DNA of 64,000 nt from Streptomyces cadmiisoli (lineage in GTDB: Bacteria > Actinomycetota > Actinomycetes > Streptomycetales > Streptomycetaceae). Numbering within the stretch: the stretch's first letter is position 1; each line of letters begins with the position of its first letter. Of this stretch, positions 5,485-22,659 are shown piece after piece. The position numbers and the translations under genes are program-made. The stretch lies in the NCBI RefSeq assembly GCF_003261055.1, contig NZ_CP030073.1, positions 2,046,001 to 2,110,000 of the forward strand, written 5' to 3'. Under the pieces are notes generated by a model. It worked only from the letters and a program-made list of their open reading frames with translations, was not told the DNA's origin and ran no database searches.

Positions 5485-5621
5485 CGTGCACCCTCCCCCA
5501 CGAACCGGCCGTGGCGCGGGAACCGGCCACGGCAGGCCGTTGAAGTCTGGGACGCCACGCGCAGGCGGAGGGTTGCGTGCCGCATTTCGCCGGCGGCATC
5601 ACCTTGGCCCAGGTTGTCCAT
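5481..5621 (-). CDS. 46-residue DUF6380-like small protein between hpnD and hpnE
   Basis: A short gene missed by length filters. It starts with an ATG at 5621 that shares TGATG with the hpnD stop, and its TGA overlaps the hpnE ATG (ATGA), so it fills the gap exactly with no spare base. The protein begins MDNLGQGDAAGEMRHATLRL and ends GRFPRHGRFVGEGAR. It is basic, has one Cys (residue 30) and no obvious membrane segment. From memory it resembles the short Streptomyces family DUF6380, whose members have the same opening and the same GEGAR ending. Function is unknown. The perfect junctions on both sides argue that it is translated, either as a real product or as a coupling device for hpnE. Confidence 0.72.
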   Translation of the reverse strand: MDNLGQGDAAGEMRHATLRLRVASQTSTACRGRFPRHGRFVGEGAR

Positions 5622-6571
5622 CAGGCGCGCCTCCTGACGGTCCGGCGGGTCACGTGCCGGGTGTCGAGGCCGGACAGACCGCGCACGGCGACATAGGCCT
5701 TCTCACGTCCGGGCAGCGAGACCCTGCCCCGCAGCACCGCCTCCGGGTCGCGCTCGATGCGGTCGAGCAGGCGGCGGTAGATGCCGGCCATCGCGGCGAC
5801 ACAGGCACCGCTGCGCCGGTCGAGCATGGGCAGCAACTGGTAGCCCTCGGCGAAGAGGGCACGGGCCCGGCGCACCTCGAAGTGCACGAGGCCGGCGAAG
5901 TCGGAGCCCTCCGGTGCCGTCGGCCCGCTGAAACCGGCCGAGCAGCCGAACTTGGCGAGGTCGTCGGCGGGCAGATAGGTGCGGCCCCCCTCGGCGTCCT
6001 CACGGACGTCGCGCAGGATGTTGGTGAGCTGGAGCGCGAGCCCGAGCGTGTCGGCGTACTCGGACGCACGTTCGACGCCGCGCGCTCCCGGTTCCGTGCC
6101 GAAGACGCCGAGCGAGAGCCGCCCGATGGCGCCGGCCACACAGCGGCAGTAGGCCTTCAGGTCGTCCCAGGTCTCGTACGTCTCGCCGCGGACGTCCATG
6201 AGGACGCCGTCGATGAGCTCGTCCAGGCCGCCCAGCGGGATCGGGAAGTGCCGGGCGGCGTGCGCTAGGGCGACCGCGACCGGGTCGGTGTCGTCCTCGG
6301 CCACCGCGTCCTCGCGGATCCGGGTGAGCAGCGCCCGGGTGTCATTGAGCCTGACCCTCTTGACCTCGTCGACGAGGTCGCCGTCACCGATGTCGTCGAC
6401 ACGGCGGGAGAACGCGTACAGCGCCGACATCGCCCGCCGCTTGGGCGTCGGCAGCAGCCTGATGCCGTAGGCGAAGTTACGGGCCTGCTGTCCGGTGACG
6501 GCCTCGCAGTAGCTGTAGGCGGCGAGTACCGGTGCGGACACGTGCGGTTCCGACTCCACGGTCCGGATCAC
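5621..6571 (-). CDS. hpnD: Presqualene diphosphate synthase HpnD
   Basis: A 316-residue squalene/phytoene synthase-family enzyme that condenses two farnesyl diphosphates to presqualene diphosphate. The first substrate-Mg motif DDIGD is at residues 59-63 within FSRRVDDIGDGD. The second lies in LQLTNILRDVREDAEGGRTY, with the Asp residues spaced as in the family. YETWDDLKAYC is a further conserved segment. The ATG at 6571 overlaps the hpnC stop as ATGA. In the three-enzyme route HpnC, HpnD and HpnE together replace a single squalene synthase. HpnD is told from HpnC by its DVRGETYETWDDL segment and its second position in the operon; the assignment within the pair is slightly less certain than the family. 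Confidence 0.92.
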   Translation of the reverse strand: MIRTVESEPHVSAPVLAAYSYCEAVTGQQARNFAYGIRLLPTPKRRAMSALYAFSRRVDDIGDGDLVDEVKRVRLNDTRALLTRIREDAVAEDDTDPVAVALAHAARHFPIPLGGLDELIDGVLMDVRGETYETWDDLKAYCRCVAGAIGRLSLGVFGTEPGARGVERASEYADTLGLALQLTNILRDVREDAEGGRTYLPADDLAKFGCSAGFSGPTAPEGSDFAGLVHFEVRRARALFAEGYQLLPMLDRRSGACVAAMAGIYRRLLDRIERDPEAVLRGRVSLPGREKAYVAVRGLSGLDTRHVTRRTVRRRA

Positions 6572-7470
6572 CCCTCTCCTCGCAGAGTCACGCCCACCTC
6601 GCGCAGCAGCCGGAGCTTGCCGGGCTTGGGCGGGCCGGGAAGTACGTCGTATTCGGCGGCGGCGATCGCTCGGACCGCCGCCCTTCCCCCTGCCACGAAC
6701 CCCGCGAGCAGCAGCCTCAGTCTGCCGTGCACGCTACCCACGAGGGGGTCGCCCTCATTCAGCAGGACGCGGGCGCGTTGGGCCTCGTACGCGACCAGGG
6801 CGCGCACCGACGCGCCCGCGGTGGGCGCGGCGAGGTCCGCCTCCTGGACGTGGAAGCGCTTCATGTCCTCGGCGGGCAGGTAGACGCGGTCGCGGCCCAG
6901 GTCCTCGGCCACGTCCTGGAGGTGCTCGACGATCTGCAGGGCCGTGCAGACCGCGTCGGAGCGGCGGATCCGCTCGGGCGTCGCGGTGCCGGTGACCGCG
7001 AGCACGAGCCGGCCCACGGGGTTGGCGGACAGCTCGCAGTAGGCGAGCAGGTCGTCCCAGGTCTCGTACCGCTTGACGAGCTGGTCCTGACGGTTGGCGG
7101 CGATCAGACCGAGGAAGGGCTCGGGCGTCAGGGAGCAGCGGCGGACGGTCGGCTGCAGACGGCGCAGCAGGGGGTGGCGCGGGGTGCCGTCGAAGACCCG
7201 GCGCAGATCCGCCTCGAAGGCGTCCAGGAGCACCAGCCGGTCCCCGGCGTCCTCGGCGGACACGCCGAGCAGGCGCGCGTCGGCGCCGCCGGGGGCGAGG
7301 TCGCCGTCACCGATGTCGTCCACGAGGCGGGCGAAGCCGTACACCGCCATCAGGTCGTCGCGCCAGGCTCTGGGCAGGAAGAAAGGGGCCACGGGGAAGT
7401 TCTCGGCCGTGGCCTTGTCGAGCGTCGCGCGCTCCGCGTTCCGCGAGCGTGCCGTGTCGGTTCCCGTCAC
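6568..7470 (-). CDS. hpnC: Hydroxysqualene synthase HpnC
   Basis: A 300-residue squalene/phytoene synthase-family protein. HpnC converts presqualene diphosphate to hydroxysqualene. The motifs are FARLVDDIGDGD (Asp at 51, 52, 55) and LQIVEHLQDVAEDLGRDRVY, with the HpnC-like ENFPVAPFFLPR opening at residues 23-34. I chose the GTG at 7470 because it gives the family N terminus and its GTGA overlaps the stop of a 21-codon ORF upstream. An ATG at 7500 in the same frame is possible but lacks a ribosome site and would add MCRPRPGQRT, which looks non-coding. It is the first enzyme gene of the operon. Confidence 0.9.
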   Translation of the reverse strand: MTGTDTARSRNAERATLDKATAENFPVAPFFLPRAWRDDLMAVYGFARLVDDIGDGDLAPGGADARLLGVSAEDAGDRLVLLDAFEADLRRVFDGTPRHPLLRRLQPTVRRCSLTPEPFLGLIAANRQDQLVKRYETWDDLLAYCELSANPVGRLVLAVTGTATPERIRRSDAVCTALQIVEHLQDVAEDLGRDRVYLPAEDMKRFHVQEADLAAPTAGASVRALVAYEAQRARVLLNEGDPLVGSVHGRLRLLLAGFVAGGRAAVRAIAAAEYDVLPGPPKPGKLRLLREVGVTLRGEG

Positions 7471-7532
7471 TGTTCGCTGCCCTGGGCGGGGACGGCACAT
7501 GCCTCGCGGAGCTGGGGAGTTTCCGTAGCCAT
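7467..7532 (-). CDS. Possible 21-codon leader ORF ahead of hpnC
   Basis: An ATG at 7532 opens a 21-codon frame (begins MATETPQLREACAVP) whose TGA overlaps the hpnC GTG start as GTGA. A GGGAG ribosome-site-like stretch lies about 11 bases upstream. The junction has the same form as the others in this operon, so translation of hpnC may be coupled to this leader. The peptide has no recognisable domain, and no run of one amino acid suggests attenuation. It could also be chance, since in high-GC DNA short open frames are common. Confidence 0.4.
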   Translation of the reverse strand: MATETPQLREACAVPAQGSEQ

Positions 7533-7849: not shown

Positions 7850-8638
7850 TTACTTGCCGGTGAACTTCTCGTACTCCTTCAGGACCTCGTCGGTCGGGCC
7901 GTCCATGCGCAGCTCACCGCGCTCCAGCCACAGCACGCGGTCGCAGGTGTCGCGGATCGACTTGTTGTTGTGGCTGACCAGAAACACCGTGCCGGCGTGC
8001 TTGCGCAGCTCCCGGATCCGCTCCTCGGAGCGCTTCTGGAACTTGCGGTCGCCGGTGGCCAGCGCCTCGTCGATCATCAGGACGTCGTGGTCCTTCGCCG
8101 CCGCGATGGAAAAGCGCAGGCGGGCCGCCATACCGGAGGAGTAGGTCCGCATCGGGAGCGTGATGAAGTCGCCCTTCTCGTTGATGCCCGAGAAGTCGAC
8201 GATCTCCTGGTAGCGCTCCTTGATCTGCTCGCGCGACATGCCCATGGCGAGGCCGCCCAATATGACGTTCCGCTCACCGGTCAGGTCGTTCATCAGGGCC
8301 GCGTTCACACCGAGCAGGGACGGCTGGCCGTTGGTGTAGACCTTGCCGCTCTCGGCCGGCAGCAGACCGGCGATGGCGCGCAGCAGCGTCGACTTGCCGG
8401 AGCCGTTGGAGCCGATCAGACCGATCGCCTCGCCCCGGTGGGCGATGAAGGACACACCTCGTACGGCGTGCACCTTGCGCACCCCGCGCGCCGCGTCGTC
8501 GGACCCCCGCTTGAGCATGCGGCTCAGGGCGGCGGTGGCGCTGCCCTTGCCGGCCTTGGCGCCGTTGACGCGGTAGACGATGTGCAGCTCGTCCGCGATG
8601 ACGGTGGGGATGCTCTGCTCGGGAGCGGACTCAGCCAC
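7850..8638 (-). CDS. ABC exporter ATPase, Wzt/TagH type
   Basis: A 262-residue ATPase of the polysaccharide/teichoic-acid exporter class. Walker A is GSNGSGKST (76-84), the signature is YSSGMAARLRFS and Walker B is VLMIDEAL, followed by VSHNNKSIRDTC with the switch His. The N terminus has about 60 residues before the P-loop, as in TagH/Wzt. The long C-terminal substrate-binding domain of many Wzt and TagH proteins is absent, so substrate recognition probably does not need a cap decoration. It overlaps the permease gene upstream by 8 bases and is the last gene of the minus-strand locus, followed by a hairpin. Inferred substrate: a lipid-linked polymer or glycolipid made by the upstream genes. 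Confidence 0.9.
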   Translation of the reverse strand: MAESAPEQSIPTVIADELHIVYRVNGAKAGKGSATAALSRMLKRGSDDAARGVRKVHAVRGVSFIAHRGEAIGLIGSNGSGKSTLLRAIAGLLPAESGKVYTNGQPSLLGVNAALMNDLTGERNVILGGLAMGMSREQIKERYQEIVDFSGINEKGDFITLPMRTYSSGMAARLRFSIAAAKDHDVLMIDEALATGDRKFQKRSEERIRELRKHAGTVFLVSHNNKSIRDTCDRVLWLERGELRMDGPTDEVLKEYEKFTGK

Positions 8639-9560
8639 GGCCGTACCTCTCCTCCGCCTTCCAGAAGTACACGAAGCCGCCGAGCGCGAAGAGCACGGCC
8701 CAGCCGCCGGCGACCGCCCAGATGTGGTCGGGCAGGTTCTCGGAGCCGTAGCCGTCGATGAGCGCGAAGCGCATCAGGTCCATGTAGACGGCCGCCGGGT
8801 TCCACTGCAGCACGGTGGCGATCCACTGCGGCTTGTCGGCGAGCATGATCGGGATGGAGTACATCACCCCGGACGCGTACATCCAGGTACGCATCACGAA
8901 CGGCATCAGCTGCGCCAGGTCCGGGGTCTTGGCGCCGGCCCGGGCCATGACCAGGGCGAGCCCGGTGTTGAAGCAGAACTGGAGCGCCAGCACCGGGACG
9001 ATCAGCAGCCAGGACAGGTCCGGGAAGCTGCCGAACGCACACGTCACCGTGAACAGCACGATCATGGAGAACAGCAGCTGCTGGAGCTGCTGGAGCGCGA
9101 AGGAGATCGGCAGCGAGGCGCGCGGGAAGTGCAGGGCGCGCACCAGGCCCAGGTTGCCGGAGATCGCGCGCACGCCCGCCATGACGGAGCTCTGCGTGAA
9201 GGTGAACACGAACACGCCCGTGACCAGGAACGGGATGTACACCTCGCGCGGCATGCCGCGGTCCGCTTCGAGGATCACGCCGAAGACGAAGAAGTACACG
9301 GCGGCGTTGAGCAGCGGCGTGACCACCTGCCACAGCTGGCCGAGCTTGGCCTGGCTGTACTGGGCGGTCAGTTTGGCGCGCGAGAAGGCGAGGATGAAGT
9401 GCCGCCGGTCCCAGAGCTGGCGGACGTACTCGACGAGGGAGGGCCGGGCGCCGCTGACGGACAGGCCGTACTTCTCGGCGAGCCGTGCCGGGGACAGTCC
9501 TTCGTCGGGTGACGGAGGCGCGGTCACCGCGACTCCGCCGTCGTGCGTTGTCTCACTCAC
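8631..9560 (-). CDS. ABC exporter permease, Wzm/TagG (ABC-2) type
   Basis: A 309-residue integral membrane protein of the ABC-2 family with about six predicted membrane segments, for example VVTPLLNAAVYFFVFGVIL, LLFSMIVLFTVTCAFG and LLIVPVLALQFCFN. The cytosolic N-terminal part carries RAKLTAQYSQAKLGQLWQV, the amphipathic interface helix typical of polysaccharide exporters. It pairs with the ATPase gene downstream, which it overlaps by 8 bases. The gap to the glycosyltransferase gene upstream is 97 bases, so a separate promoter is possible, though the direction and content suggest one locus. Confidence 0.9.
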   Translation of the reverse strand: MSETTHDGGVAVTAPPSPDEGLSPARLAEKYGLSVSGARPSLVEYVRQLWDRRHFILAFSRAKLTAQYSQAKLGQLWQVVTPLLNAAVYFFVFGVILEADRGMPREVYIPFLVTGVFVFTFTQSSVMAGVRAISGNLGLVRALHFPRASLPISFALQQLQQLLFSMIVLFTVTCAFGSFPDLSWLLIVPVLALQFCFNTGLALVMARAGAKTPDLAQLMPFVMRTWMYASGVMYSIPIMLADKPQWIATVLQWNPAAVYMDLMRFALIDGYGSENLPDHIWAVAGGWAVLFALGGFVYFWKAEERYGRG

Positions 9561-9657
9561 TGGTGGAAACTTTCGTCTTCGAGATGCGCGGCCTGTACGG
9601 GCAGGGCATGGGCCGGGAGCCGAGCCATGCGCCCGAATGCTCTCAGGGACGAGCTTG

Positions 9658-10542
9658 TCAGATCACCGGTGGTCGGCCCAGCCGGGTCAGCCGCCACACC
9701 GTACGCCACTTCATGGGCCTGCGGGGGCCGCAAGGAGTGCGCCAGCCCTCCCGGAAGCCGCCGAACCAGGCCCGCAGGGCGGGCCGCGAAGGGCGGCGCA
9801 GCAAGGTGAGCAGCAGCCAGATGCCCAGGTAGACCGGCACCAGGGCGGCGGGCAGGTTGCGGCGGGCCAGCCAGACGCGGTTGCGGGCGACCATGCGGTG
9901 GTAGACCGCGTGCCGTGAGGGCGCGGTCGTCGGGTGGTACAGCACCATGTCGGACCGGTAGTCGATCATCCAGCCCGCGTCGAGGGCCCGCCACGCCAGA
10001 TCGGTTTCCTCGTGCGCGTAGAAGAACGCGTCCGGCAGGCCGCCGACCTCGGCGAGGACCTGGGTGCGCACGGCGTTGGCGCCGCCGAGGAACGTGGTGA
10101 CCCTGGAGGACCGCATCGGGTCGGAGGCGCGCAGCCGGGGCACGTGGCGGCGCTGGGTGACACCGGTGTCCGGATCGGCGATGCGGAAGCTGACGATGCC
10201 GAGCCGCGCGTCGGCCGCGAAGGCCTCGCGGCACAGCTCCGCGGTGTCGGTGCGGGCGAGCAGGCCGTCGTCGTCCAGGAAGAGCAGGACGTCGACCTCG
10301 CGGCCGCTCGGACCGAAGGCCTCGATACCGACGTTGCGGCCGCCCGGGATGCCGAGGTTCTCCGGCAGCTCGACCGTACGGACGCCGTCGGGGACCTCGG
10401 GCACGGGTGATCCGTTGCCGACCACGACCACGGATATCGGGTCGCCGTCCTGCTTGGCGACCGAGTCGACCAGGGCGCGCAGTTCCTCGGGGCGGTTGCC
10501 CATCGTGATGATGACCGCCCCGACCTTCAGCCCGGCGCTCAC
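9658..10542 (-). CDS. Family 2 glycosyltransferase
   Basis: A 294-residue GT-A glycosyltransferase. The N terminus GAVIITMGNRPEELRALVDS and the NLGIPGGRNVGIEA segment are the nucleotide-sugar fold. The metal-binding motif is FLDDDG near residue 90, and AHEETDLAWRA (about 190) is the acceptor-side acidic motif shared with rhamnosyl- and galactofuranosyl-transferases. A hydrophobic stretch PVYLGIWLLLTLLRR near the C terminus suggests membrane association. The GTG start at 10542 overlaps the stop of the CDP-alcohol phosphotransferase as GTGA. The sugar is unknown; the divergent galE nearby suggests galactose. Confidence 0.85.
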   Translation of the reverse strand: MSAGLKVGAVIITMGNRPEELRALVDSVAKQDGDPISVVVVGNGSPVPEVPDGVRTVELPENLGIPGGRNVGIEAFGPSGREVDVLLFLDDDGLLARTDTAELCREAFAADARLGIVSFRIADPDTGVTQRRHVPRLRASDPMRSSRVTTFLGGANAVRTQVLAEVGGLPDAFFYAHEETDLAWRALDAGWMIDYRSDMVLYHPTTAPSRHAVYHRMVARNRVWLARRNLPAALVPVYLGIWLLLTLLRRPSRPALRAWFGGFREGWRTPCGPRRPMKWRTVWRLTRLGRPPVI

Positions 10543-11318
10543 CGGAGCCTGCTGGAGGCCAGGACGGACACGAGGTGCAGCAGCGTCTGGAGAAGGGCGA
10601 TACCGGCCAGGACGGCGACCCCGAGCCGGGTGAAGAACAGATCGCCGCGCACCGCGTCCAGCACCGCGAGGAGCAGGATCAGCAGCGACGCCTCGATGCC
10701 GAGCACCAGCCGGTGGAACTTCAGCGCCCCGGCCGCCCTGCGGGCCAGCGCCATGCCCGAGGAGCGCGGTTCGGACGCGGCCTCCTTGACCGGCGGCAGT
10801 CCGCCCTGGTGGCGGGCGACGCCCACGAGGTCCGTCTCGGCCTTGATCAGGATCGCGCCGAGCGCGGCCAGGGTGCCGAGGAAGGCCCAGAGCCAGTCGA
10901 TCCGGCCGGATCCCCACAGGTCGGCGGCGCGCAGCCCGAAGCCGACCAGCACCGCGGCGTCGCACAGGTAGGCGCCGACCCGGTCCAGGTAGACCCCGCC
11001 GAGCGAGAACTGCTTCTTCCAGCGCGCGATCTCGCCGTCGACGCAGTCGAGCAGCAGGTAGAGCTGGACCATCAGCACGCCGAGCACGGCGCCAGCGATG
11101 CCCGGCACCAGCAGCGCCGGGGCGGCGAGGACGCCGAAGAGGGTCATCAGGTACGTGAGCTGGTTGGGCGTGATCCTGGTGTTCACCAGGTAGCGGTCGA
11201 CCCGCAGCGACACCTCGCGCATGTAGAGGCGTCCCGCCCAGTGCTCACCGCTGCGCCGGTCCTTGACCCCCGCGGGGTGGACGACCGGCCGGAGTTCAGC
11301 TACCGATGGCCTTGACAT
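10539..11318 (-). CDS. CDP-alcohol phosphotransferase with a non-canonical active site
   Basis: A 259-residue polytopic membrane enzyme of the CDP-alcohol phosphatidyltransferase family, which moves a phospho-alcohol from CDP to an acceptor. The signature is at residues 91-116: D91, D94, G95, A98, R99, G108 and D112 match the family pattern, but position 116, normally the fourth Asp and proposed general base, is Ala (DRVGAYLCD). About five hydrophobic segments follow. The ATG at 11318 lies inside the upstream dehydrogenase gene (23-base overlap), and its stop overlaps the glycosyltransferase start. A second transferase at 13094-14884 has the complete motif, so this copy may be specialised or inactive. 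Confidence 0.83.
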   Translation of the reverse strand: MSRPSVAELRPVVHPAGVKDRRSGEHWAGRLYMREVSLRVDRYLVNTRITPNQLTYLMTLFGVLAAPALLVPGIAGAVLGVLMVQLYLLLDCVDGEIARWKKQFSLGGVYLDRVGAYLCDAAVLVGFGLRAADLWGSGRIDWLWAFLGTLAALGAILIKAETDLVGVARHQGGLPPVKEAASEPRSSGMALARRAAGALKFHRLVLGIEASLLILLLAVLDAVRGDLFFTRLGVAVLAGIALLQTLLHLVSVLASSRLR

Positions 11319-12357
11319 AGTCCGCGTAGATGTCCTTGATCTGGTGGGTTTGCAGGTCGAGGTGCTCGAGGATCGTGTAGCGGCCGGGCCGGGTCCGCGG
11401 CGCGTACTCCACGACCCGGACGAACTCGTCGGGCGTGAAGCCGATCTCCTCCGGGAGCACCGGCAGCCCGTGCCGGCGCAGCACCCCCGCCATGTACACG
11501 GATTCCTCCTGCGCCCCGCGCAGATACATCGCGAAGGCCGCGCCGAGCCCGCACTGCTCGCCGTGGGCGGCGGCCCGCCGGGGGAAGAGCAGGTCGAAGG
11601 CGTGGTTGATCTCGTGGCAGGCACCGGAGGAGGGGCGGGAGTCGCCCGACACCGACATGGCGATGCCGCTGAGGACCAGCGCCTCGGCCAGTACCTGCAG
11701 GAAGTCGTTGTCGCCGATGCCGCCCGGGTGCCGGAGCACCGCCTCGCCCGCCTGACGGGCCATGGCCGCGGCGAGTCCGTCGATCTTCTCGCCCTTGACG
11801 CGGTGGGCGAGCTCCCAGTCGGCGATGGCGGAGATGTTGGAGACGGCGTCGCCGATGCCGGCCCGGACGAAGCGGACCGGTGCCTCGCGGATGACGTCCA
11901 GGTCGATCACGACGGCGATCGGGTTGGGCACGCCGTACGAGCCGCGTCCCGCGTCGTTGTCGAGGGTGGCCACCGGGGAGCACAGGCCGTCGTGCGCGAG
12001 GTTCGTGGGGACGGCGACCAGCGGCAGCCCGACACGGGCCGCGGCGAACTTGGCGCAGTCGATGATCTTGCCGCCGCCGAGGCCGACGAGCGCGTCGAAG
12101 TGGCCCGCCCTGATGTCGGCGGCCAGCCGGACGGCGTCGTCGAGGGTGCCGCCGCCCACCTCGTACCAGGTGGCGCCGGGCAATTGCGGGGCGACGCGGT
12201 CGCGCAGCCGGGCGCCGGAGCCGCCGCTGACGGCGACCGCGAGCTTGCCCGAGTGCGAGATGCGCTCGTCGGCGAGCACACCGGCCAGATCGTCGAGGGC
12301 ACCCGGACGGATGTCCACGACGACCGGCGACGGTATGAGCCGGGTCAGTACTGGCAC
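11296..12357 (-). CDS. Glycerol-1-phosphate dehydrogenase-like (EgsA/AraM-type) enzyme
   Basis: A 353-residue iron/zinc alcohol dehydrogenase-family protein. GLGGGKIIDCAK (92-103) is the NAD-binding loop, NLAHDGLCSPVATL (119-132) resembles the substrate region of sn-glycerol-1-phosphate dehydrogenases, and the metal ligands appear to be D170 (GIGDAVSN), H248 and H265 (CHEINH, AAAHGEQ). EgsA/AraM enzymes reduce dihydroxyacetone phosphate to sn-glycerol-1-phosphate, the enantiomer used in archaeal lipids. The GTG at 12357 overlaps the cytidylyltransferase gene by 13 bases. Context, flanked by CDP-alcohol enzymes, fits production of a phospho-polyol for CDP activation. Exact substrate is inferred; a related phospho-polyol is possible. 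Confidence 0.78.
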   Translation of the reverse strand: MPVLTRLIPSPVVVDIRPGALDDLAGVLADERISHSGKLAVAVSGGSGARLRDRVAPQLPGATWYEVGGGTLDDAVRLAADIRAGHFDALVGLGGGKIIDCAKFAAARVGLPLVAVPTNLAHDGLCSPVATLDNDAGRGSYGVPNPIAVVIDLDVIREAPVRFVRAGIGDAVSNISAIADWELAHRVKGEKIDGLAAAMARQAGEAVLRHPGGIGDNDFLQVLAEALVLSGIAMSVSGDSRPSSGACHEINHAFDLLFPRRAAAHGEQCGLGAAFAMYLRGAQEESVYMAGVLRRHGLPVLPEEIGFTPDEFVRVVEYAPRTRPGRYTILEHLDLQTHQIKDIYADYVKAIGS

Positions 12358-13097
12358 GCGATCTCCCGTCCCCGGGCGAGATCGTCGTGGTTGTCGATCT
12401 CGACCCACGGCACGTCGCCGATGGGTGCCACATCGATCCGGAAGCCGCGGTTCACGAGCTCCTGGTAGCCGTGCTCGTAGAACTGCTGGGGGTCGGTCTC
12501 CCACACGGTCCGCAGGGCGTCGGCCAGCTCGGGGGCGGCGTCGCCCTCGATGAGGGTGACGCCGATGTACTCGCCGGTGGCCTCGGCCGGGTCCATCAGC
12601 TTGGTGATCCGCCGGACGCCCCGGGCGGGGTCGACGACGACCTTCATCTCCTCGTCGGCCAGCGACTTCACGTCGTCGAGGGCGAGGATGATCCGCCTGC
12701 CGTCGCCACGGGCGGCGAGCAGTGTCCGCTCCACGGAGACCGGGTGCACGGTGTCGCCGTTGGCGAGGATCACGCCGTCCTTGAGGGCGTCACGGCCGCA
12801 CCACAGGGAGTAGGCGTTGTTCCACTCCTCGGCCTTGTCGTTGTCGATCAGGGTGAGCCGCAGACCGTACGTGCGCTCCAGCTCCTCCTTGCGCGCGTAC
12901 ACGGCCTCCTTGCGGTAGCCGACGATGATCGCGGCCTCCGTCAGTCCGACCTCGGCGAAGTTGCCGAGCGTCAGGTCGAGAACCGTGGGGCCGTCCTCGC
13001 TGCCCGCGGGCCCCACCGGCACCAGTGCCTTGGGCAGGGTGTCGGTGTAGGGGCGCAGACGCCGGCCGGCGCCGGCCGCCAGCACGAGGCCGATCAT
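12345..13097 (-). CDS. LicC-like phospho-alcohol cytidylyltransferase
   Basis: A 250-residue nucleotidyltransferase. The N terminus GLVLAAGAGRRLRPYTDTLP followed by KALVPVG is the classical signature (GxGxRLxPxTxxxPK) and NGDTVHP near 115 supplies the metal-binding Asp. WNNAYSLWCGRDAL and WVEIDNHDDLARG near the end are typical of phosphocholine cytidylyltransferase-like and inositol-phosphate cytidylyltransferase proteins. Expected reaction: CTP plus a phospho-alcohol gives a CDP-alcohol, here probably for the two adjacent CDP-alcohol phosphotransferases, with the phospho-alcohol from the G1P-dehydrogenase-like enzyme. The ATG at 13097 overlaps the stop of the upstream gene as ATGA. Confidence 0.83.
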   Translation of the reverse strand: MIGLVLAAGAGRRLRPYTDTLPKALVPVGPAGSEDGPTVLDLTLGNFAEVGLTEAAIIVGYRKEAVYARKEELERTYGLRLTLIDNDKAEEWNNAYSLWCGRDALKDGVILANGDTVHPVSVERTLLAARGDGRRIILALDDVKSLADEEMKVVVDPARGVRRITKLMDPAEATGEYIGVTLIEGDAAPELADALRTVWETDPQQFYEHGYQELVNRGFRIDVAPIGDVPWVEIDNHDDLARGREIACQY

Positions 13098-14884
13098 GCG
13101 GGTTCTCCTTCGTCGTGTACGGCGGGCGCGCCGCCCCGGTGGGCGGACACCCAGAAGCGGATGCTCTCGACGAGCACCACCAGGGCGACGGCCACGGCGA
13201 GAACCGTGAGCGCGACCTTGAACTGCGCGGCGGTCAGCAGTACGGCCAGCAGGGCGACCAGCAACGTGCGTCCCTCGTGCCCCCCGATCGCCCGCGTGAG
13301 CCAGTGCGGGGGCGCCCCCGCGTCGCCGCGGATGCGGTAGACCGTGTCGTAGTGATGGTAGGCGACGGCGGCCACCAGCCCGAAAGCCGCGGGAAGCGTT
13401 CCGTTCACGTCCGATTCAGCCGCGAGGAGGAGGACGGTGCCGTACTCGGCGGCGCGGAAGAACGGCGGGACCAGCCAGTCCAGGGCGCCCTTGAGCGGAC
13501 GGGCGACGGCCACGGCGGACAGTCCGGCGTAGCCGAGCGCGCCGAGCGCGGTCTGCCATGAGGCGCCCCAAAGTGCGGCGGGGATCACTACGAGCAGTCC
13601 GCCGGCCGCGGCGGCCGGCGGGGCGGGGATCCGCACCCGGTCGCGCACGAACCGGGCCGCCGCCAGCGCGAGAGGGCCGCTGTCCGCGAGGTCCGCGAGC
13701 GCCCGCGCAGCCCGGTCCGTGCGCCGGGCCCTGCGGGTCAGCGACCGCAGGACACGGCCCGCGGTGGTGTACGTCGCGGCGAAGGCGCAGCCGATCAGCA
13801 GGACGACGAAGGTGATGCGCGGAGTGGTGACCGCGGTCAGGACGGCGATCAGCGCCCAGCGCTCCCCGATCGGCAGAACGATCATCCGTCGCACCCACAC
13901 CGTCCAGCCGACGCTGTCGAGCCGGTCGGAGAGGGCGGCGGTGGGACTGGTGTTGGCGGCGTCCCCGGCGTTGCCCTCGTTGAAGGCGAAGTCCACGACG
14001 TGCCGGCAGGTCTGCAGGACCATCGCGCCGAGAGCGAGGGCCCATACGTCGTCCCCGCCGCGGGCGGCGCCGAGCGCGAGGCCCGCGTAGTAGGCGTATT
14101 CCTTGGCCCGGTCGAAGGTGGCGTCCAGCCAGGCGCCGAGGGTGGAGTACTGCAGGGAGTAGCGGGCGAGCTGGCCGTCGGTGCAGTCCAGCACGAAGGA
14201 GGCGATCAGCAGCAGTCCGGCCGCGACGAACCCGGCGCGGGTGCCGGTGGCCGCGCAGCCCGCGGCGATCAGCGCGGTGACCAGGGACGCGGTGGTGACC
14301 TGGTTCGGGGTGAGGCCGCGGCGGGCGCACCAGCGGGCGAGATAGCGGGAGTAGGGGCTGACGCAGTAGGTGGTGAAGAAGCCGTCACGGGCCTTCACGG
14401 CCGACTTCAGGCGCACGGCCTCGTCGTCGACGGCGGCGACGGCCTGCCGTGCCTCGTTGCGGGCCTGCGGGTCGGCGGGGACCGCGGCGACCAGGCTGCC
14501 CAGCTCGGGACGGTGCACATCGGTGTCGAGGGCGGCGGCCACCCGGTCGGCGAGGCTGTCGACGAGGGTCGTCCCGCCGCCGACTGCGTTCTCCCGCGCC
14601 AGCGCCCGGGTCAGGGCGGGCCGGCCGGCCGCCTGCGCGGTCACGGCGCCGGGTATCGCGGCGAGCGGGAAGCGGGGGTCGGTGAGACCGAGCCGCAGCG
14701 CGTGCAGGTGCCCGACGAAACGCGGGTCGACGACGGCGACCCGCTCACCGGCCGGCACCTGGGCGAGCAGGTTCTCGGCGGCGGCGGAATCGGCGGCGGT
14801 GTGCACCTCGAAGCCGAGGGACCGCAGATCGTCCTCGATCGACGATCCGGGGACCGGCTGACCGGCGAGGATGGCGGTCGACAA
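13094..14884 (-). CDS. DUF5941-type CDP-alcohol phosphotransferase fusion
   Basis: A 596-residue protein and the first gene of the minus-strand locus. Residues 1 to about 165 form a soluble domain I do not recognise (from memory, such proteins are named DUF5941). Residues 190-260 contain a complete CDP-alcohol phosphotransferase motif: D233, D236, G237, A240, R241, G250, D254, D258. The lead-in DGFFTTYCVSPYSRYLARWC followed by TPNQVTTAS resembles the start of the DIPP-synthase domain in bifunctional inositol-phosphate enzymes. The C-terminal half has many hydrophobic segments, so it is a large polytopic protein, about twice the length of a minimal family member. Substrate unknown. Confidence 0.8.
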   Translation of the reverse strand: MSTAILAGQPVPGSSIEDDLRSLGFEVHTAADSAAAENLLAQVPAGERVAVVDPRFVGHLHALRLGLTDPRFPLAAIPGAVTAQAAGRPALTRALARENAVGGGTTLVDSLADRVAAALDTDVHRPELGSLVAAVPADPQARNEARQAVAAVDDEAVRLKSAVKARDGFFTTYCVSPYSRYLARWCARRGLTPNQVTTASLVTALIAAGCAATGTRAGFVAAGLLLIASFVLDCTDGQLARYSLQYSTLGAWLDATFDRAKEYAYYAGLALGAARGGDDVWALALGAMVLQTCRHVVDFAFNEGNAGDAANTSPTAALSDRLDSVGWTVWVRRMIVLPIGERWALIAVLTAVTTPRITFVVLLIGCAFAATYTTAGRVLRSLTRRARRTDRAARALADLADSGPLALAAARFVRDRVRIPAPPAAAAGGLLVVIPAALWGASWQTALGALGYAGLSAVAVARPLKGALDWLVPPFFRAAEYGTVLLLAAESDVNGTLPAAFGLVAAVAYHHYDTVYRIRGDAGAPPHWLTRAIGGHEGRTLLVALLAVLLTAAQFKVALTVLAVAVALVVLVESIRFWVSAHRGGAPAVHDEGEPA

Positions 14885-15192
14885 CCGAACTCACTCCCTG
14901 GGTTCCGACGCGTCCACGCCGGCCGTGTGCAAGGTGGGGGCGCACCGCCGGGCCGCGTGATGGGCTGCGCCAGGCGGGCGACATGTCGGCAGAGGCTATC
15001 GGATGATGAGAAGCCTGTGTTCACCGACCGTTCATGGCCCGGTCGACACAGTCTGCTGGGACCTCCGCGTAGATCATCATCAGGGATGCCCGGCCCGTCG
15101 TACAACATCGCGTGTACGGAAGCGGGCATTCACGGCATCCGGCACTCCACCGCGGACGGCCGGCGGTGCGGCCGGGCTTAGGGTGGGCTGCC
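14885..15192. promoter_or_regulatory. Divergent intergenic region between the glycopolymer locus and galE
   Basis: About 308 bases with no gene that I can support. It must carry promoters for both directions. An inverted repeat CGTACA-8-TGTACG lies at 15099-15118, and a G-rich AGGGTGGG stretch just before galE probably serves as its ribosome site. No clear -10/-35 pair was found. Confidence 0.35.
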
Positions 15193-16164
15193 ATGACGTG
15201 GCTGATCACCGGCGGTGCCGGATACATCGGGGCACATGTGGCGCGGGCCATGACCGGGGCCGGGGAGCGTGTGATCGCGCTGGACGACCTCTCGGCCGGG
15301 GTGCCCTCGCGTCTCCCGGCGGACGTGCCGCTGGTCCGCGGCTCGTCACTGGACGGCGCGCTGCTCGAGCGTGTGCTGGCCGAGCACGCGGTGACGGGTG
15401 TGGTGCACCTGGCCGCCCGCAAGCAGGTCGCCGAGTCGGTGGCACAGCCCACCCGGTACTACCGGGAGAACGTGGGCGGACTCACGACGCTGCTCGACGC
15501 GGTCGCCGAGGCCGGGATCGAACGGTTCCTGTTCTCCTCGTCGGCGGCGGTGTACGGCGATCCGGACGTGGACCTCATCACGGAGGACACGCCGTGCGCC
15601 CCGGTGAACCCCTACGGCGAGACCAAGCTCGCCGGCGAGTGGCTGGTGCGCGCGGCGGGGCAGGCGCACGGCATCGCGACGGCGTGCCTGCGCTTCTTCA
15701 ACGTGGCGGGGGCCGCCGCGCCGGAGCTGGCCGACACCGGCGTCTTCAACGTCGTCCCCATGGTCTTCGACCGGCTCACCCGCGACGAGGCCCCGAGGAT
15801 CTTCGGGGACGACTACCCCACGCCGGACGGCACCTGCGTCCGCGACTACATCCATGTGGCCGATCTCGCCGACGCGCACCTCGCGGCGGCCCGGCGGCTG
15901 TCCGCGCCGGGCGCCTCCGGCGACCTGACGGTCAACATCGGCCGCGGCGAGGGGGTGTCCGTGCGGGAGCTGATCACGCTGATCGGCGAGGCGACCGGGG
16001 ACACCCGCCCGCCGCTCGTCGAGGCACGCCGTCCGGGGGACGCGCCGCGGGCCGTCGCCTCGGCCGCGCGGGCCGCCGAGGAACTGGGCTGGACGGCCCG
16101 GCGCACCGTGCGCGAGATGGTCGACTCGGCCTGGCGGGGATGGCAGCTGCACCACGGCGGATGA
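15193..16164 (+). CDS. galE: UDP-glucose 4-epimerase
   Basis: A 323-residue extended short-chain dehydrogenase. The NAD-binding motif TGGAGYIGAHVARA (6-19) opens the protein. The catalytic residues are in FSSSAAVYG (Ser about 116) and NPYGETK (Y141, K145). RDYIHVADLADAHL is the usual GalE C-domain signature. It interconverts UDP-glucose and UDP-galactose. It is transcribed away from the exporter/CDP-alcohol locus from a shared intergenic region, which suggests it supplies UDP-galactose to that pathway, though GalE also serves general metabolism. The ATG at 15193 gives the classical N terminus; a hairpin follows the gene. Confidence 0.92.
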   Translation: MTWLITGGAGYIGAHVARAMTGAGERVIALDDLSAGVPSRLPADVPLVRGSSLDGALLERVLAEHAVTGVVHLAARKQVAESVAQPTRYYRENVGGLTTLLDAVAEAGIERFLFSSSAAVYGDPDVDLITEDTPCAPVNPYGETKLAGEWLVRAAGQAHGIATACLRFFNVAGAAAPELADTGVFNVVPMVFDRLTRDEAPRIFGDDYPTPDGTCVRDYIHVADLADAHLAAARRLSAPGASGDLTVNIGRGEGVSVRELITLIGEATGDTRPPLVEARRPGDAPRAVASAARAAEELGWTARRTVREMVDSAWRGWQLHHGG

Positions 16165-16301: not shown

Positions 16302-17240
16302 ATGGGGGCAGGGCACGACCACGGGCACGGGCACGGCGCGCCGGTCACCGGTACGGCGGCCGCCGCCTACCGCGGCCGGCTGCGGGTGGCACTCGGCATC
16401 ACACTGACCGTGACGGTGGTCGAGATCGTCGGTGGTGTCCTCGCGGACTCCCTCGCGCTGATCGCGGACGCCGCGCACATGGCGACCGACGCGCTCGGCC
16501 TGGGCATGGCGCTGCTCGCGATCCACTTCGCCAACCTCCCGGCGAGCCGGAACCGCACGTTCGGACTCGCCCGCGCGGAGATCCTCGCCGCGCTCGCCAA
16601 CTGCCTGCTGCTGCTCGGCGTCGGCGGATACGTCCTGTACGAGGCGATCCAGCGGTTCATCACCCCGGCCGGCACCGAGGGCGGTCTGACCATCGTGTTC
16701 GGCCTGATCGGCCTGGTGGCGAACATGATCTCCCTCTCGCTGCTGATGCGCGGCCGGCGGGAGAGCCTGAACGTGCACGGCGCCTTCCTGGAGGTGGCGG
16801 CGGACGCGCTGGGCTCGGTGGCCGTGCTGATCTCCGCGACCGTGATCCTCACCACCGGCTGGCAGTACGCCGACCCGATCGCCTCGCTCGTGATCGGGCT
16901 GATGATCGTGCCGCGCACGCTGAAGCTGCTGCGCGAGACCCTCGACGTGCTGCTGGAGTCGGCCCCCAAGGGCGTCGACATGACGGAGGTGCGCTCGCAC
17001 ATGCTGGCGCTCGACGGCGTGGAGGAGGTGCACGACCTGCACGCCTGGACGATCACGTCGGGCATGCCGGTGCTGTCCGCGCACGTGGTGGTGCGCTCCG
17101 ACGTCCTGAACGCGATAGGGCACGAGAAAATGCTCCACGAGCTCCAGGGCTGCCTGGGCGACCACTTCGACGTGGAGCACTGCACCTTCCAGCTGGAACC
17201 GGGCGGGCACGCGGAGCACGAGGCGCGGCTCTGCCACTGA
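16302..17240 (+). CDS. Cation diffusion facilitator metal exporter (ZitB/CzcD type)
   Basis: A 312-residue inner-membrane antiporter that exports zinc or related divalent cations. The N terminus is His-rich (HDHGHGHG), and six membrane helices follow. The metal site is made by ADAAHMATD (helix 2, HxxxD) and AFLEVAADALGS (helix 5, where the equivalent His-Asp pair is reduced to one Asp plus HGAF just before it). The C-terminal cytosolic domain begins near VDMTEVRSHM and contains VHDLHAWTITSG, the usual dimerisation fold. The stop is followed by about 250 bases without a recognisable gene before idi. Confidence 0.92.
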   Translation: MGAGHDHGHGHGAPVTGTAAAAYRGRLRVALGITLTVTVVEIVGGVLADSLALIADAAHMATDALGLGMALLAIHFANLPASRNRTFGLARAEILAALANCLLLLGVGGYVLYEAIQRFITPAGTEGGLTIVFGLIGLVANMISLSLLMRGRRESLNVHGAFLEVAADALGSVAVLISATVILTTGWQYADPIASLVIGLMIVPRTLKLLRETLDVLLESAPKGVDMTEVRSHMLALDGVEEVHDLHAWTITSGMPVLSAHVVVRSDVLNAIGHEKMLHELQGCLGDHFDVEHCTFQLEPGGHAEHEARLCH

Positions 17241-17493
17241 CCCGGCGGCTCCGGCGGGCCGGGCTGCCACGGATCACGGCGCGCCCGGCCGGCCGGGCGG
17301 CGACGGAGCGCAGCGGTCCGCCGACCGGCGGCGTCCTCACCGTCGTACGCCCCGCCGCGGACGGTTCCCGCGCCGCCGCGCCGGGCACGATCACCTACCG
17401 GGCCCCTCTTCCGGTGCCGACGCGCCGCGAAGTGCCGGGAGTGCCGGATTCGTACGGCAGACTGGGGCCCGAGGAACGAGGCGAAGGATGGGT

Positions 17494-18087
17494 ATGCCGA
17501 TCACACCTGCCACCGCGACGCACAGCTCGTCGAACGGCACCACTGAAGCGGTCCTGCTGGAACTGGTCGACGAGCACGGCGTGACGATCGGCACCGCGGA
17601 GAAGCTGGCCGCCCACCAGGCGCCGGGCCAGCTGCACCGGGCGTTCTCGGTCTTCCTGTTCGACGAGCACGGCCGGCTGCTGCTCCAGCAGCGGGCGCTC
17701 GGCAAGTACCACTCCCCCGGTGTGTGGTCCAACACCTGCTGCGGTCATCCGTACCCGGGCGAGGCGCCCTTCGCGGCGGCGGCCCGGCGGACGTACGAGG
17801 AGCTCGGCATCTCGCCGTCGCTGCTCGCCGAGGCCGGCACGGTGCGCTACAACCACCCGGACCCGGCCTCCGGCCTGGTGGAGCAGGAGTACAACCACCT
17901 CTTCGTCGGCATGGTGCAGTCGCCGCTGCGGCCGGACCCGGAGGAGGTGCACGCCACGGCCTTCGTCACCCCGGCCGAGCTGGCGGAGCGAGCAGCGAAG
18001 GACACCTTCTCGGCGTGGTTCATGACGGTCCTGGACGCGGCCCGCCCCGCGATCAAGGAGCTGACCGGCCCGTCCGCGGGCTGGTGA
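17494..18087 (+). CDS. idi: Isopentenyl-diphosphate delta-isomerase, type 1
   Basis: A 197-residue Nudix-fold enzyme that interconverts isopentenyl and dimethylallyl diphosphate. The catalytic Cys is in WSNTCCGHPYPGE and the metal-binding and second active-site region in EYNHLFVG. The Nudix-like helix is AARRTYEELGI. I chose the ATG at 17494 (MPITPATATHSS) because AAGGA lies 7 bases upstream; an ATG 6 bases earlier overlaps that site. It supports the isoprenoid flow into the hopanoid operon 10 kb away. Its stop lies 3 bases from the stop of the convergent regulatory gene. Confidence 0.94.
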   Translation: MPITPATATHSSSNGTTEAVLLELVDEHGVTIGTAEKLAAHQAPGQLHRAFSVFLFDEHGRLLLQQRALGKYHSPGVWSNTCCGHPYPGEAPFAAAARRTYEELGISPSLLAEAGTVRYNHPDPASGLVEQEYNHLFVGMVQSPLRPDPEEVHATAFVTPAELAERAAKDTFSAWFMTVLDAARPAIKELTGPSAGW

Positions 18088-18090: not shown

Positions 18091-18636
18091 TTACGGCAGC
18101 CGGGCCGGCCTGAACGGCAGGGCGGCCCAGATCACCTTGCCGCCGCTCGACGTGTGCTCGACGTCGCACACACCGCCCGCCTCGCGGGTGATCTCACGCA
18201 CCAGCAGCAGACCACGGCCGCCCGTCCGGCCGTGGTCGGCCTCCAGCGCGGTGGGCCGGTAGGGGTGGTTGTCCTCCACGGAGACCCGCACCCACTCGGC
18301 ACCCACGGCGACCTCCACGGCGAGCATCGGCGACAGCAGCGCCGCGTGCCGGACCGCGTTCGTGACCAGCTCCGAGACGATCAGCAGCAGGCCCTGGACC
18401 AGGTCGTCCGGGACCGGGACCCGCTGGCGGACCAGCAGGTCGCGCACCGCGTGCCGGGCCTGTGGGACCGAGGCGTCCACGGCCGGGGCGGTGAACCGCC
18501 ACACCCCTTCGAACGGCAGCGGACCGCGCGTCCCCGGTTCCACGGGTGCGTCCGTGCCGCCTTCTGGGCGTGGGGCGGGCCCGCGCCCTGGATTGTCCAT
18601 CGTCCGGTCGCCACCCTTGTGCTCGATTGTCACCAC
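18091..18636 (-). CDS. HATPase-domain regulatory protein (anti-sigma factor-like)
   Basis: A 181-residue protein of the Streptomyces RsbW-like ATP-binding family. The Bergerat-fold signatures are LLLIVSELVTNAVRHA (N box), VRVSVEDNHP (G1) and GRTGGRGLLLVREI (G2). About 45 N-terminal residues are Pro/Gly-rich linker. Such proteins usually sequester a sigma factor or act as stand-alone kinases of anti-anti-sigma proteins. No STAS partner or sigma factor gene is adjacent, so the target is unknown. Start uncertain: the GTG at 18636 gives the full frame and an ATG at 18600 (MDNPGRG) is an alternative. Confidence 0.82.
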   Translation of the reverse strand: MVTIEHKGGDRTMDNPGRGPAPRPEGGTDAPVEPGTRGPLPFEGVWRFTAPAVDASVPQARHAVRDLLVRQRVPVPDDLVQGLLLIVSELVTNAVRHAALLSPMLAVEVAVGAEWVRVSVEDNHPYRPTALEADHGRTGGRGLLLVREITREAGGVCDVEHTSSGGKVIWAALPFRPARLP

Positions 18637-18989
18637 ACGTCGAGTGTTGGTAACGGGGCACTGCGCGCCGGAGAACTGAACACAAGTCAGCTGTTATCGA
18701 GCGCTTCTGACCGTTGGCGTATGACACGGTCAGTTGTGGGACTGCTCCTGTCTGACTCGTGCGGACTTTGCGAACTCTTCGGGTTGTACGGGTTTGACGG
18801 CGCCCACTTCGGCGTCCCTGGTGGCGCCGTCTTCGGCGTCCCGGTGGCGCCCTCTGCCGCGTCCCCGACGGCATCCCGTGCCACGCACCCTCCCGGCGTC
18901 CCCGTCGGCGTCGCCGGGCCGTGCGTGGCGGCCGGGCGGCAGCACCCTCGTCGATCGCGGCGAGACACCGTGCGGCTAGCATCCCGCGC
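18637..18989. repeat. Intergenic region with a tandem imperfect repeat
   Basis: About 350 bases between divergent genes. A 21-22 base unit, CTTCGGCGTCCC followed by GGTGGCGCC, occurs twice in tandem (18807-18828 and 18831-18851) within a stretch rich in GGCGTCCC copies up to about 18910. A minus-strand frame through it reads repeated PPGTPK-like turns, but it has no start signal or known homology. The part next to 18660-18740 is AT-richer and probably holds the promoter of the HATPase gene. Confidence 0.45.
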
Positions 18990-19787
18990 ATGAACGCCCA
19001 GCTGTCGCACCATGTCGCCGACTCGGTGGCCACCGTCGTGATCGACCATCCGGCGAAGCGCAACGCGATGACCGCCGCGATGTGGCGGGCGCTGCCGGAG
19101 CTGCTGGGCACCCTGGCCGCCGATCCGCGGGTGCGGGCGCTGGTCCTGACGGGGGCGGGCGGCACGTTCTGCGCCGGGGCGGACATCTCGACGCTGCGGG
19201 AGTCACCCGAGGAGGCGCAGCGGCTCGCGGTCCGGGCCGAGGAGGAGCTCGCCGCGTTCCCCAAGCCGACGCTGGCGGCGATCCGCGGGCACTGCGTGGG
19301 CGGCGGGGCCCAGCTCGCGGCGGCCTGCGATCTGCGGTTCGCCGAGCAGGGTGCGCTGTTCGGGGTCACGCCGGCGAAGCTCGGGATCGTGTATCCGGCC
19401 TCCGCCACCCGGCGCCTGACGGCCCTGGTCGGTCCGGCGACCGCCAAGTACCTGCTGTTCTCCGGCGAGTTGATCGACAGCGAACGGGCGTTGCGCACGG
19501 GCCTGGTGGACGAGGTGCTTCCCGGGGCCGCGCTCGACGAGCGGGTCGCGGAGTTCACCCGGATCCTCGTGTCCCGCTCGCAGCTGACGCAGGCGGCGGC
19601 GAAGGAGTTCACCGCCGGACGCGCCGACCGGGACGCGTACTGGAGCGAGCAGGCGCGCACCGGTGACGACACCGCGGAGGGGGTCGCCGCGTTCCTGGAG
19701 CGCAGGGCGCCCCGCTTCACCTGGACGGCGCCGGCACCGCACTCCGAGCGCGACGACAGGCGGCCGGCCCTTCAGGAACCTTCCTGA
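18990..19787 (+). CDS. Enoyl-CoA hydratase/isomerase family protein
   Basis: A 265-residue crotonase-fold enzyme. The oxyanion-hole segments are AGADISTLRESP and AIRGHCVGGGAQLAAACDLR (about 95-115), and the C-terminal part has GVTPAKLGIVYPASATRRLT. Of the two crotonase catalytic Glu positions, the first (after GGG) is Gln here (GGGAQL) and the second region is LGIVYP, so it may be an isomerase or another crotonase reaction, not a classical hydratase. The ATG at 18990 follows CATCCCGCGC with no clear ribosome site and may be nearly leaderless. It stands alone. Confidence 0.85.
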   Translation: MNAQLSHHVADSVATVVIDHPAKRNAMTAAMWRALPELLGTLAADPRVRALVLTGAGGTFCAGADISTLRESPEEAQRLAVRAEEELAAFPKPTLAAIRGHCVGGGAQLAAACDLRFAEQGALFGVTPAKLGIVYPASATRRLTALVGPATAKYLLFSGELIDSERALRTGLVDEVLPGAALDERVAEFTRILVSRSQLTQAAAKEFTAGRADRDAYWSEQARTGDDTAEGVAAFLERRAPRFTWTAPAPHSERDDRRPALQEPS

Positions 19788-20039
19788 CCGTCCCCTGCCC
19801 TGCTCGCCCTGCTCCCGCCCGTCCTCCCCTCCTGATGTCGCCCGGTCCGCCCGGCACCGCGGAGCGGACTCCACGCGCGCGTGTCGTCCGTCCGTGCATG
19901 ACGGGCGACCGGGTGAGGTACCCGGAGACCGCCCGGCCGCCGCAAGCGACCCGTCCGGCAGACGGAGCAATCCGACGGACCGGGTATCCGGGACCGAGGG
20001 CCGACGAAGACGGTCGACACAGACGAGAGGGGATTCGAC

Positions 20040-20177
20040 GTGTTGCGAGCCGTCCTGGATGTGCTGCGCCGGATCGGCGGTGCCGTGGCCACCGTCGTGA
20101 CGCTGCCCTTCCGTGCACTGGCCCGCCTGTTCGGCGGCGCCTCGGGGTCCGCACGGCGCGGAGCGCGACATGTGTGA
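20040..20177 (+). CDS. LPFR-motif small protein
   Basis: A 45-residue protein starting at a GTG with GAGAGGGG 8 bases upstream. It reads LRAVLDVLRRIGGAVATVVT, then LPFRALARLFGGASG and a basic tail. The central LPFR and the amphipathic hydrophobic helix match a small conserved Streptomyces family known by that motif (from memory). It is probably membrane-associated. Function unknown. It lies 100 bases before tex on the same strand and was too short for ordinary ORF calling. Confidence 0.78.
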   Translation: MLRAVLDVLRRIGGAVATVVTLPFRALARLFGGASGSARRGARHV

Positions 20178-20277
20178 CCGAGGCGCGCCTCGCCGCAATC
20201 GTGCCCTGGTCCCCCACTGTCGGTGACACCTGCCACAATTGCCGCGCAACCCGAAGTTGAGAAGGCGGTACGGGATC

Positions 20278-22659
<2,382 letters not shown>

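Follow-up and report, generated by a model that had tools for sequence, protein, structure and literature searches.

What does the seven-gene locus that pairs CDP-alcohol enzymes with an ABC exporter in Streptomyces make? We addressed this question in a 64-kb window of the Streptomyces cadmiisoli genome (assembly GCF_003261055.1, contig NZ_CP030073.1, positions 2,046,001-2,110,000), where the locus occupies window positions 7850..16164. Reading leftward from a divergent promoter, the genes encode a CDP-alcohol phosphotransferase (CDPOH_A), a LicC-like nucleotidyltransferase (NTP), an EgsA/AraM-like dehydrogenase (FeADH), a second CDP-alcohol phosphotransferase homologue (CDPOH_B), a family 2 glycosyltransferase (GT2), and the ABC transporter proteins Wzm and Wzt, followed by hpnC and hpnD (Table 1). 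The original prediction, made from the DNA alone, described seven minus-strand genes and a divergent galE, all of which were recovered by Pfam or NCBIfam matches. Its outline of a CDP-alcohol route with a glycerol-1-phosphate (G1P) dehydrogenase-like enzyme, a LicC-like cytidylyltransferase, CDP-alcohol phosphotransferases, a glycosyltransferase, and a Wzm/Wzt-type exporter was likewise borne out at the level of protein families. On balance, we lean toward a PhoP-tuned locus for the synthesis and export of a surface glycopolymer or glycolipid that contains glycerol phosphate.

Gene families, gene order, co-loss, a PHO-box-like element, and a replaced catalytic residue (D4, below) can be observed directly; from them, we infer the substrates, the order of steps, and the product. 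FeADH would reduce dihydroxyacetone phosphate (DHAP) to sn-glycerol-1-phosphate, and NTP would convert this to CDP-1-glycerol. The membrane enzymes CDPOH_A and CDPOH_B would then transfer glycerol phosphate to a lipid-borne acceptor, GT2 would add a sugar, and the Wzm/Wzt pair would flip the product outward, with PhoP adjusting the operon to phosphate supply.

The first two steps draw on FeADH and NTP. The best named NCBIfam model for FeADH was the NAD(P)-dependent G1P dehydrogenase (PRK00843) at 244.7 bits, with the glycerol dehydrogenase model far below at 87 bits, and G1P dehydrogenases take the first two places among its PDB matches (4rgq at 7.7e-43, the second at 8.1e-43). The Asp/His/His triad D170, H248, and H265, which we take to be the metal-binding residues, is conserved, with Glu at position 170 in one distant locus (G045; G and L numbers are our labels for genomes and loci). 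We propose that FeADH is an EgsA/AraM-like, predicted G1P dehydrogenase that would share the stereospecific DHAP reduction of its family, and by the same resemblance, sn-G1P is a likely building block. The nearest PDB entry to NTP was the LicC phosphocholine cytidylyltransferase 1jyk (E 3.7e-11, residues 3-111 only), and we propose NTP as the predicted CTP-dependent activator of the phospho-alcohol. NTP and FeADH also adjoin in distant genomes, in G204 with one CDP-alcohol enzyme only. This G204 triad (L127:7378-9858) is a compact, minimal form whose CDP-alcohol enzyme has D4 intact; no GT2 or Wzm match of the locus was found beside it.

The CDP-alcohol signature comprises eight residues described as absolutely conserved, with D4 as the proposed catalytic base (PMC4634129; also PMC6506517), and a D4N replacement in mycobacterial PIP synthase is reported to have nearly abolished activity while acceptor binding was retained (PMC4634129). 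CDPOH_A carries the full D1xxD2GxxAR...GxxxD3xxxD4 signature, DCTDGQLARYSLQYSTLGAWLDATFD (DCTDGQLAR..GAWLDATFD), and its residues D233, D236, G237, A240, R241, G250, D254, and D258 were invariant in 41/41 sequences. CDPOH_B lacks D4. AF2299, DIPP synthase, and PIP synthase share the family and the CDP-binding signature with both proteins, but CDPOH_B has Ala or His at the catalytic position. AF2299 is the nearest PDB match of both (4o6m for CDPOH_A), and its pocket is described as suiting soluble donors, such as CDP-glycerol (PMC4634129). We also sought a cytidylyltransferase domain at the N-terminus of CDPOH_A, where the first ~155 residues had no PDB match by single-sequence or profile search.

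At the D4 position of CDPOH_B, the window has Ala, as do all close loci but one (79 of 80; L067 has His). A set of 17 loci spread over the family (L143-L159) divides into 12 with His and 5 with Ala, and each of the five strong copies from outside the family has His. The remaining seven signature residues (D91, D94, G95, A98, R99, G108, and D112) were invariant in 26/26 family and phylum sequences. A pattern-based tally of non-redundant motifs in the sampled loci, which leaves variants outside the pattern (for example, L167) uncounted, gave 74 Ala and 17 His among B-like motifs and Asp in 69/69 other CDP-alcohol motifs. Because the D4 label changed at least twice on a 40-row tree and all four distant rows, which have long branches, carried His, His is likely the older state, and Ala likely has two or more origins, one of them in a paralogue also carried by this genome. 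The window genome (G000) encodes a second D4-less (Ala) CDP-alcohol enzyme at C1:4120434-4121189, 54% identical to CDPOH_B and adjoining a cytidine-deaminase-like gene; comparable Ala paralogues occur in G382, G364, G307, G182, and G193. Our search of the open-licence literature turned up no D4-less CDP-alcohol subfamily, and this natural Asp-to-His/Ala series offers a means to test the catalytic-base model for this large family of membrane enzymes.

The state of D4 varied with the presence of CDPOH_A. Its DUF5941 domain matched strongly (E <= 1.6e-54) in 100 of 150 Streptomycetaceae genomes (a total that includes G268, where it spans two frames, and G280 and G313, where the match is partial), was fragmentary or weak in 12, and had no match in 38. 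Among the 50 genomes without a strong CDPOH_A match, D4 was read in 48, excluding G259 and G262, which lack the locus, and was His in every one. Sampled genomes with a strong match had His in 24 and Ala in 25 of 49; the Ala form was found only together with CDPOH_A in these samples (25/25), in raw counts from related genomes with few independent events. These distributions bear on whether CDPOH_B has lost catalysis altogether and merely helps CDPOH_A or the exporter, which we regard as possible though doubtful. The confinement of Ala to genomes with CDPOH_A and the effect of D4N in PIP synthase would fit a dead partner, whereas the invariance of the seven remaining residues speaks for retained function, and the 48 genomes that keep a His-bearing CDPOH_B without intact CDPOH_A indicate that at least the His form does more than assist CDPOH_A. 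We read the His form as able to serve alone, and the Ala form may either use a different acceptor chemistry or lean on CDPOH_A.

The original prediction treated these genes as a set, and their order across Streptomyces agrees: they are conserved as a unit. One genome-contig scan matched 534 stretches, of which the close loci are the best 80, all from close relatives (79 titled Streptomyces and one 'Actinobacteria bacterium'). The seven genes stood in order with hpnC-hpnD in 74 of them, counting genes matched in two pieces once, and this order is not due to chance. One of the 74, L049, also has an opposite-strand GT2 match inside; the six exceptions are four loci cut by contig ends (L032, L056, L066, and L076), L034 without a Wzt match, and L046 without a Wzm match. 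Wider samples weigh more than these near relatives. In the 150 Streptomycetaceae genomes, FeADH matched at E <= 1e-60 in 148, falling below this in G259 and G262, and CDPOH_B matched at E <= 6.2e-92 in 147, the exceptions being G259 and G262 (E about 1e-4) and G376 (71% complete, 1.4e-42). Since G259 and G262 have no strong match to either gene, FeADH and CDPOH_B were lost together. Across 246 genomes of the phylum, FeADH was strong (E <= 4.4e-94) in 13 and CDPOH_B (E <= 2.3e-53) in 13, with both in 12, FeADH only in G204, and CDPOH_B only in G225. GT2, CDPOH_B, FeADH, and NTP lie together or nearly so in four genomes outside the family (G086, G183, G108, and G045); in G108, NTP and CDPOH_A are about 15 kb from FeADH. 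No CDPOH_A was seen in the analysed stretch of G045 and no Wzm/Wzt in that of G183. Genes at distant loci were called by a crude GC3 ranking that yields some spurious frames and can miss real genes, such as the G086 NTP, which was found by locus-gene matching. Second strong FeADH copies are present in three genomes of the window's genus (G310 C2:289541-290590, G298 C1:856393-857448, and G348 C1:1645477-1646535).

Two further features, like the missing D4, had escaped the original prediction: a PHO-box-like promoter and TagB/TagF-like genes in the clusters of distant relatives. The direct repeat GTTCACCGACC-GTTCATGGCCC is the sole match to G[GT]TCA-N6-G[GT]TCA in the window. The PHO box is described as two 11-nucleotide (nt) direct repeats in which, for S. 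coelicolor, GTTCACC is the best-conserved motif (PMC4415409); here, the first repeat has the full core and the second reads GTTCATG, a match at the level of sequence only. In 73 full-length loci, the strict pattern occurred in 39 within the 600-nt promoter stretch and gave 2 matches in all of the remainder. Upstream of CDPOH_A in 79 loci (L032, without a CDPOH_A start, was dropped), GTTCA-N6-GTTCA was found with no mismatch in 43, one in 20, and two in 16, always within 350 nt and in one orientation. The corresponding rates in 2458 control 350-nt windows from the same loci were none, 0.37%, and 10.4%; given the last of these, the two-mismatch cases alone prove little, though the first repeat there is GTTCACC or GTTCACT. 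The repeat was also found in the 15 loci without a clear galE and therefore belongs to the operon. No sigma-70 match emerged from a scan of the promoter region. Two other blocks, at window positions 14979-15004 and 14885-14903, are perhaps the -10 region or promoter and the ribosome-binding site.

Evidence from S. coelicolor points the same way. There, zitB is reported as SCO6751 (PMC5472717) and the hopanoid cluster as beginning at SCO6759 (PMC4551226, PMC2374992). The cation-efflux gene beyond galE corresponds to zitB in place and family, so by synteny the counterpart of the locus would fall within SCO6752-6758. For SCO6753, which this places inside the locus, published work lists a PHO box or dyad, counts the gene among the predicted PhoP targets, and records an altered profile when phoP is mutated (PMC4173021). 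Together, these observations suggest that PhoP controls the operon, binding and direction both being presumed; by analogy with B. subtilis teichoic acid genes, phosphate starvation might repress it.

We next consider the nature of the product. The original prediction held that this was not a standard wall teichoic acid locus, and we reached the same view: TagD (TIGR01518) had 0 matches at E <= 0.001 in the genome, and no locus protein matched Glyphos_transf, the Pfam family of TagB/TagF, whose one weak match in the genome lies outside the locus. An archaeal-type lipid pathway was rejected because PcrB/GGGP synthase (PF01884) also had 0 matches at E <= 0.001 in the genome. Phosphonate tailoring was likewise set aside, though no search for PEP mutase was made. 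The earlier wording of a complete locus with every step was too strong, as no lipid-initiating enzyme, clear polymerase, or wall ligase is found in it. Distant clusters supply part of the picture. The G108 cluster has a Glyphos_transf-like gene (24.5 bits against a cut-off of 22.1) that overlaps NTP, as well as a WbaP-like sugar transferase next to Wzt. In G204, Wzm, Wzt, and a fusion of GT2 with Glyphos_transf (383 bits) accompany a DUF5941 CDP-alcohol enzyme, 0.9 Mb from the NTP-FeADH-CDP-alcohol enzyme triad. In G225, CDPOH_B and GT2 adjoin a Glyphos_transf-like gene (25.8 bits) whose product is 36% identical to that of G108 over 337 aligned columns. These genes favour a glycerol- or ribitol-phosphate polymer setting.

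The product could instead be a small glycophospholipid, a glycerol-phosphate head on a lipid that is flipped, rather than a polymer; we consider this unlikely but credible. It would account for the lack of a clear polymerase, for a Wzt in which no C-terminal glycan-binding domain was found (Pfam), and for the extra hydrophobic segments in the DUF5941 part of CDPOH_A, since extra membrane helices in eukaryotic relatives are proposed to suit a hydrophobic acceptor (PMC4634129). However, the exporter, an ABC-2 permease with an ABC ATPase that reaches no named equivalog cut-off, resembles TagGH and galactan exporters, and the TagB/F-like and, in G108, WbaP-like genes of distant clusters are typical of polymers.

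Several findings weigh against the PhoP-tuned, glycerol-phosphate-containing product that we favour. The locus contains neither a polymerase nor a lipid starter, and the genome's sole TagF-like match, 3.8 Mb away, neighbours an IspD-SDR fusion suggestive of CDP-ribitol. The TagB/F-like protein of G225 was unmatched in 4 of 13 searched genomes (G273, G249, G086, and G045), all with the locus core, and its match in the window genome is the protein of the CDP-ribitol-like locus, which speaks against a strict partnership. G225 itself has CDPOH_B without a strong FeADH, so CDPOH_B is not strictly tied to G1P. The exporter scores fall short, with TagH as the best named match of Wzt (184 bits, cut-off 320) and Wzm below the cut-off of the galactan exporter permease model (51.6 bits). 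In the promoter, the two neighbouring blocks are better conserved than the repeat (about 0.97 versus 0.908, with 0.744 for the rest, in 80 sequences), and the PHO-box match fades in other genera: in 13 other family loci with a CDPOH_A start, it had 0 mismatches in 4, 1 in 2, 2 in 2, and at least 3 in 5. The substrates of the locus enzymes are assigned by family only, and the third PDB match of FeADH, 3ce9, deposited as a glycerol dehydrogenase, is nearly as good as the first two (2.9e-42). Finally, the 244.7 bits of FeADH lie below the PRK00843 cut-off of 413. This shortfall also leaves room for a phospho-alcohol other than G1P, such as another polyol or sugar-alcohol phosphate, with CDP activation, transfer, and export unchanged. 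NTP resembles inositol-phosphate cytidylyltransferase and sugar-phosphate nucleotidyltransferase models (NCBIfam) too, and some FeADH relatives act on unrelated ketones. We nevertheless think another polyol unlikely: the two best structural matches of FeADH are G1P dehydrogenases, and related clusters hold TagB/F-like glycerophosphotransferase homologues, although TagB/F-like enzymes can also use ribitol.

The glycerol-phosphate product that we prefer can be set against known systems. Like the B. subtilis wall teichoic acid pathway (TagD-TagB-TagF-TagGH), the locus would use CDP-glycerol-type activation, a TagGH-like exporter, and possibly Pho control; it differs in its LicC-like cytidylyltransferase, its CDP-alcohol phosphotransferases, its G1P-type dehydrogenase, and the lack of Tag counterparts noted above. 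With the EgsA/AraM pathways (archaeal lipids and heptaprenylglyceryl phosphate of B. subtilis), it shares the FeADH family and the likely product, but here G1P would be CDP-activated. If so, bacterial G1P dehydrogenase would gain a use outside archaeal-type lipids. A Streptomyces member of the G1P dehydrogenase family appears in a published tree alignment (PMC5059525), and Streptomyces synteny of crtB, tagH, tagG, araM, a CDP-alcohol enzyme, GT2, and a nucleotidyltransferase has been published under a teichoic-acid label (PMC13118837); we found no functional study of the locus in the open-licence literature. A further CDP-alcohol polymer locus of the same genome (L172, G000 C1:5846000-5858000, about 5.85 Mb) is separate and differs in gene content, with an IspD-SDR fusion, a Glyphos_transf protein, a TarS-linker GT2, and a PhoD-like phosphatase, and is likely a CDP-ribitol teichoic acid locus.

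Streptomyces polyglycerolphosphate lipoteichoic acid is also a glycerol-phosphate polymer, and we hypothesise that the locus is a candidate for its route. The polymer is reported from S. hygroscopicus and S. coelicolor, with no detectable polymer in S. verticillus; the same source leaves biosynthesis open, favours a route shared with wall teichoic acid through Streptomyces tagB/tagF orthologues, and states that actinobacteria have no clear LtaS orthologue (all PMC3196553), LtaS not having been searched in the window genome. In B. subtilis, the glycerol phosphates of wall and lipoteichoic acid are described as enantiomers (PMC7086022). A bolder proposal is that sn-G1P, the archaeal enantiomer, enters the surface polymer through CDP-1-glycerol and the D4-less enzyme, replacing TagB/TagF and LtaS as the missing source of this lipoteichoic acid. 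Its acceptor, for example a polyprenyl or lipid phosphate, would be already ionised, so that no general base would be needed. We hold this to be a speculative idea, and an improbable one. With FeADH strong in 148/150 family genomes, the locus is a concrete, deletable candidate for the open lipoteichoic-acid route.

The hopanoid neighbourhood named in the original prediction stands as a description of the window and of the 74 close loci in which hpnC-hpnD come directly next, an arrangement that might suggest that the locus tailors hopanoids. The adjacency is not universal, and a functional tie is unsupported: L143, L144, and L146 keep the locus (L144 without CDPOH_A) with no HpnC/HpnD in a 19.9-kb stretch, L148 has 4.7 kb between the two, and the distant stretches L123-L132 (13-20 kb) gave no match to HpnC/HpnD. 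Because the locus is also kept where no hpn genes lie nearby, we rejected hopanoid tailoring as its main function and rate it very improbable.

Table 1. Features of the locus and its surroundings (window coordinates; residue numbers where stated)
Feature	Position	Strand	Assignment and basis
CDPOH_A	13094..14884	-	Opens the operon with a TTG start; CDP-alcohol phosphotransferase core, all eight signature residues intact
CDPOH_A domains			N-terminal region, fold unassigned; CDP-OH_P_transf, residues 192-289; DUF5941, residues 390-596, C-terminal membrane domain (Pfam)
NTP	12345..13097	-	LicC-like nucleotidyltransferase, proposed CTP:glycerol-phosphate cytidylyltransferase (Pfam NTP_transferase; PDB 1jyk)
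FeADH	11296..12357	-	EgsA/AraM-like glycerol-1-phosphate dehydrogenase, proposed DHAP to sn-glycerol-1-phosphate (Pfam Fe-ADH_2)
CDPOH_B	10539..11318	-	CDP-alcohol phosphotransferase homologue without signature D4 (Pfam CDP-OH_P_transf)
CDPOH_B signature	10971..11048	-	Codon 116 (10971-10973) is Ala instead of catalytic Asp (D4)
GT2	9658..10542	-	Glycosyltransferase (Pfam Glycos_transf_2)
Wzm	8631..9560	-	Wzm/TagG-like ABC permease (Pfam ABC2_membrane)
Wzt	7850..8638	-	Wzt/TagH-like ABC ATPase, 262 aa (Pfam ABC_tran)
PHO-box-like repeat	15019..15040	+	GTTCACCGACC GTTCATGGCCC; divergent promoter of operon and galE
galE	about 15193..16164	+	Divergent, optional neighbour; TIGR01179, 309 bits (cut-off 262, passed)
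HpnC	6568-7500		Downstream of Wzt
HpnD	5621-6571		Downstream of Wzt
Cation-efflux gene	16302-17240		Beyond galE

The description of seven overlapping genes applies to five of the six junctions, as 97 nt separate Wzm from GT2. The NCBIfam matches of GT2 itself, to MftF and GlfT1, were weak and far short of cut-off. Farther out, three putative open frames without a Pfam match lie at window positions 17395-17952, 18194-19720, and 19717-22329 (minus; strand and coding status provisional). The divergent galE, counted as a core part by the original prediction, proved optional, with a clear copy in 64 of 79 loci; at least one of the other 15, L026, has galE matched in two pieces.

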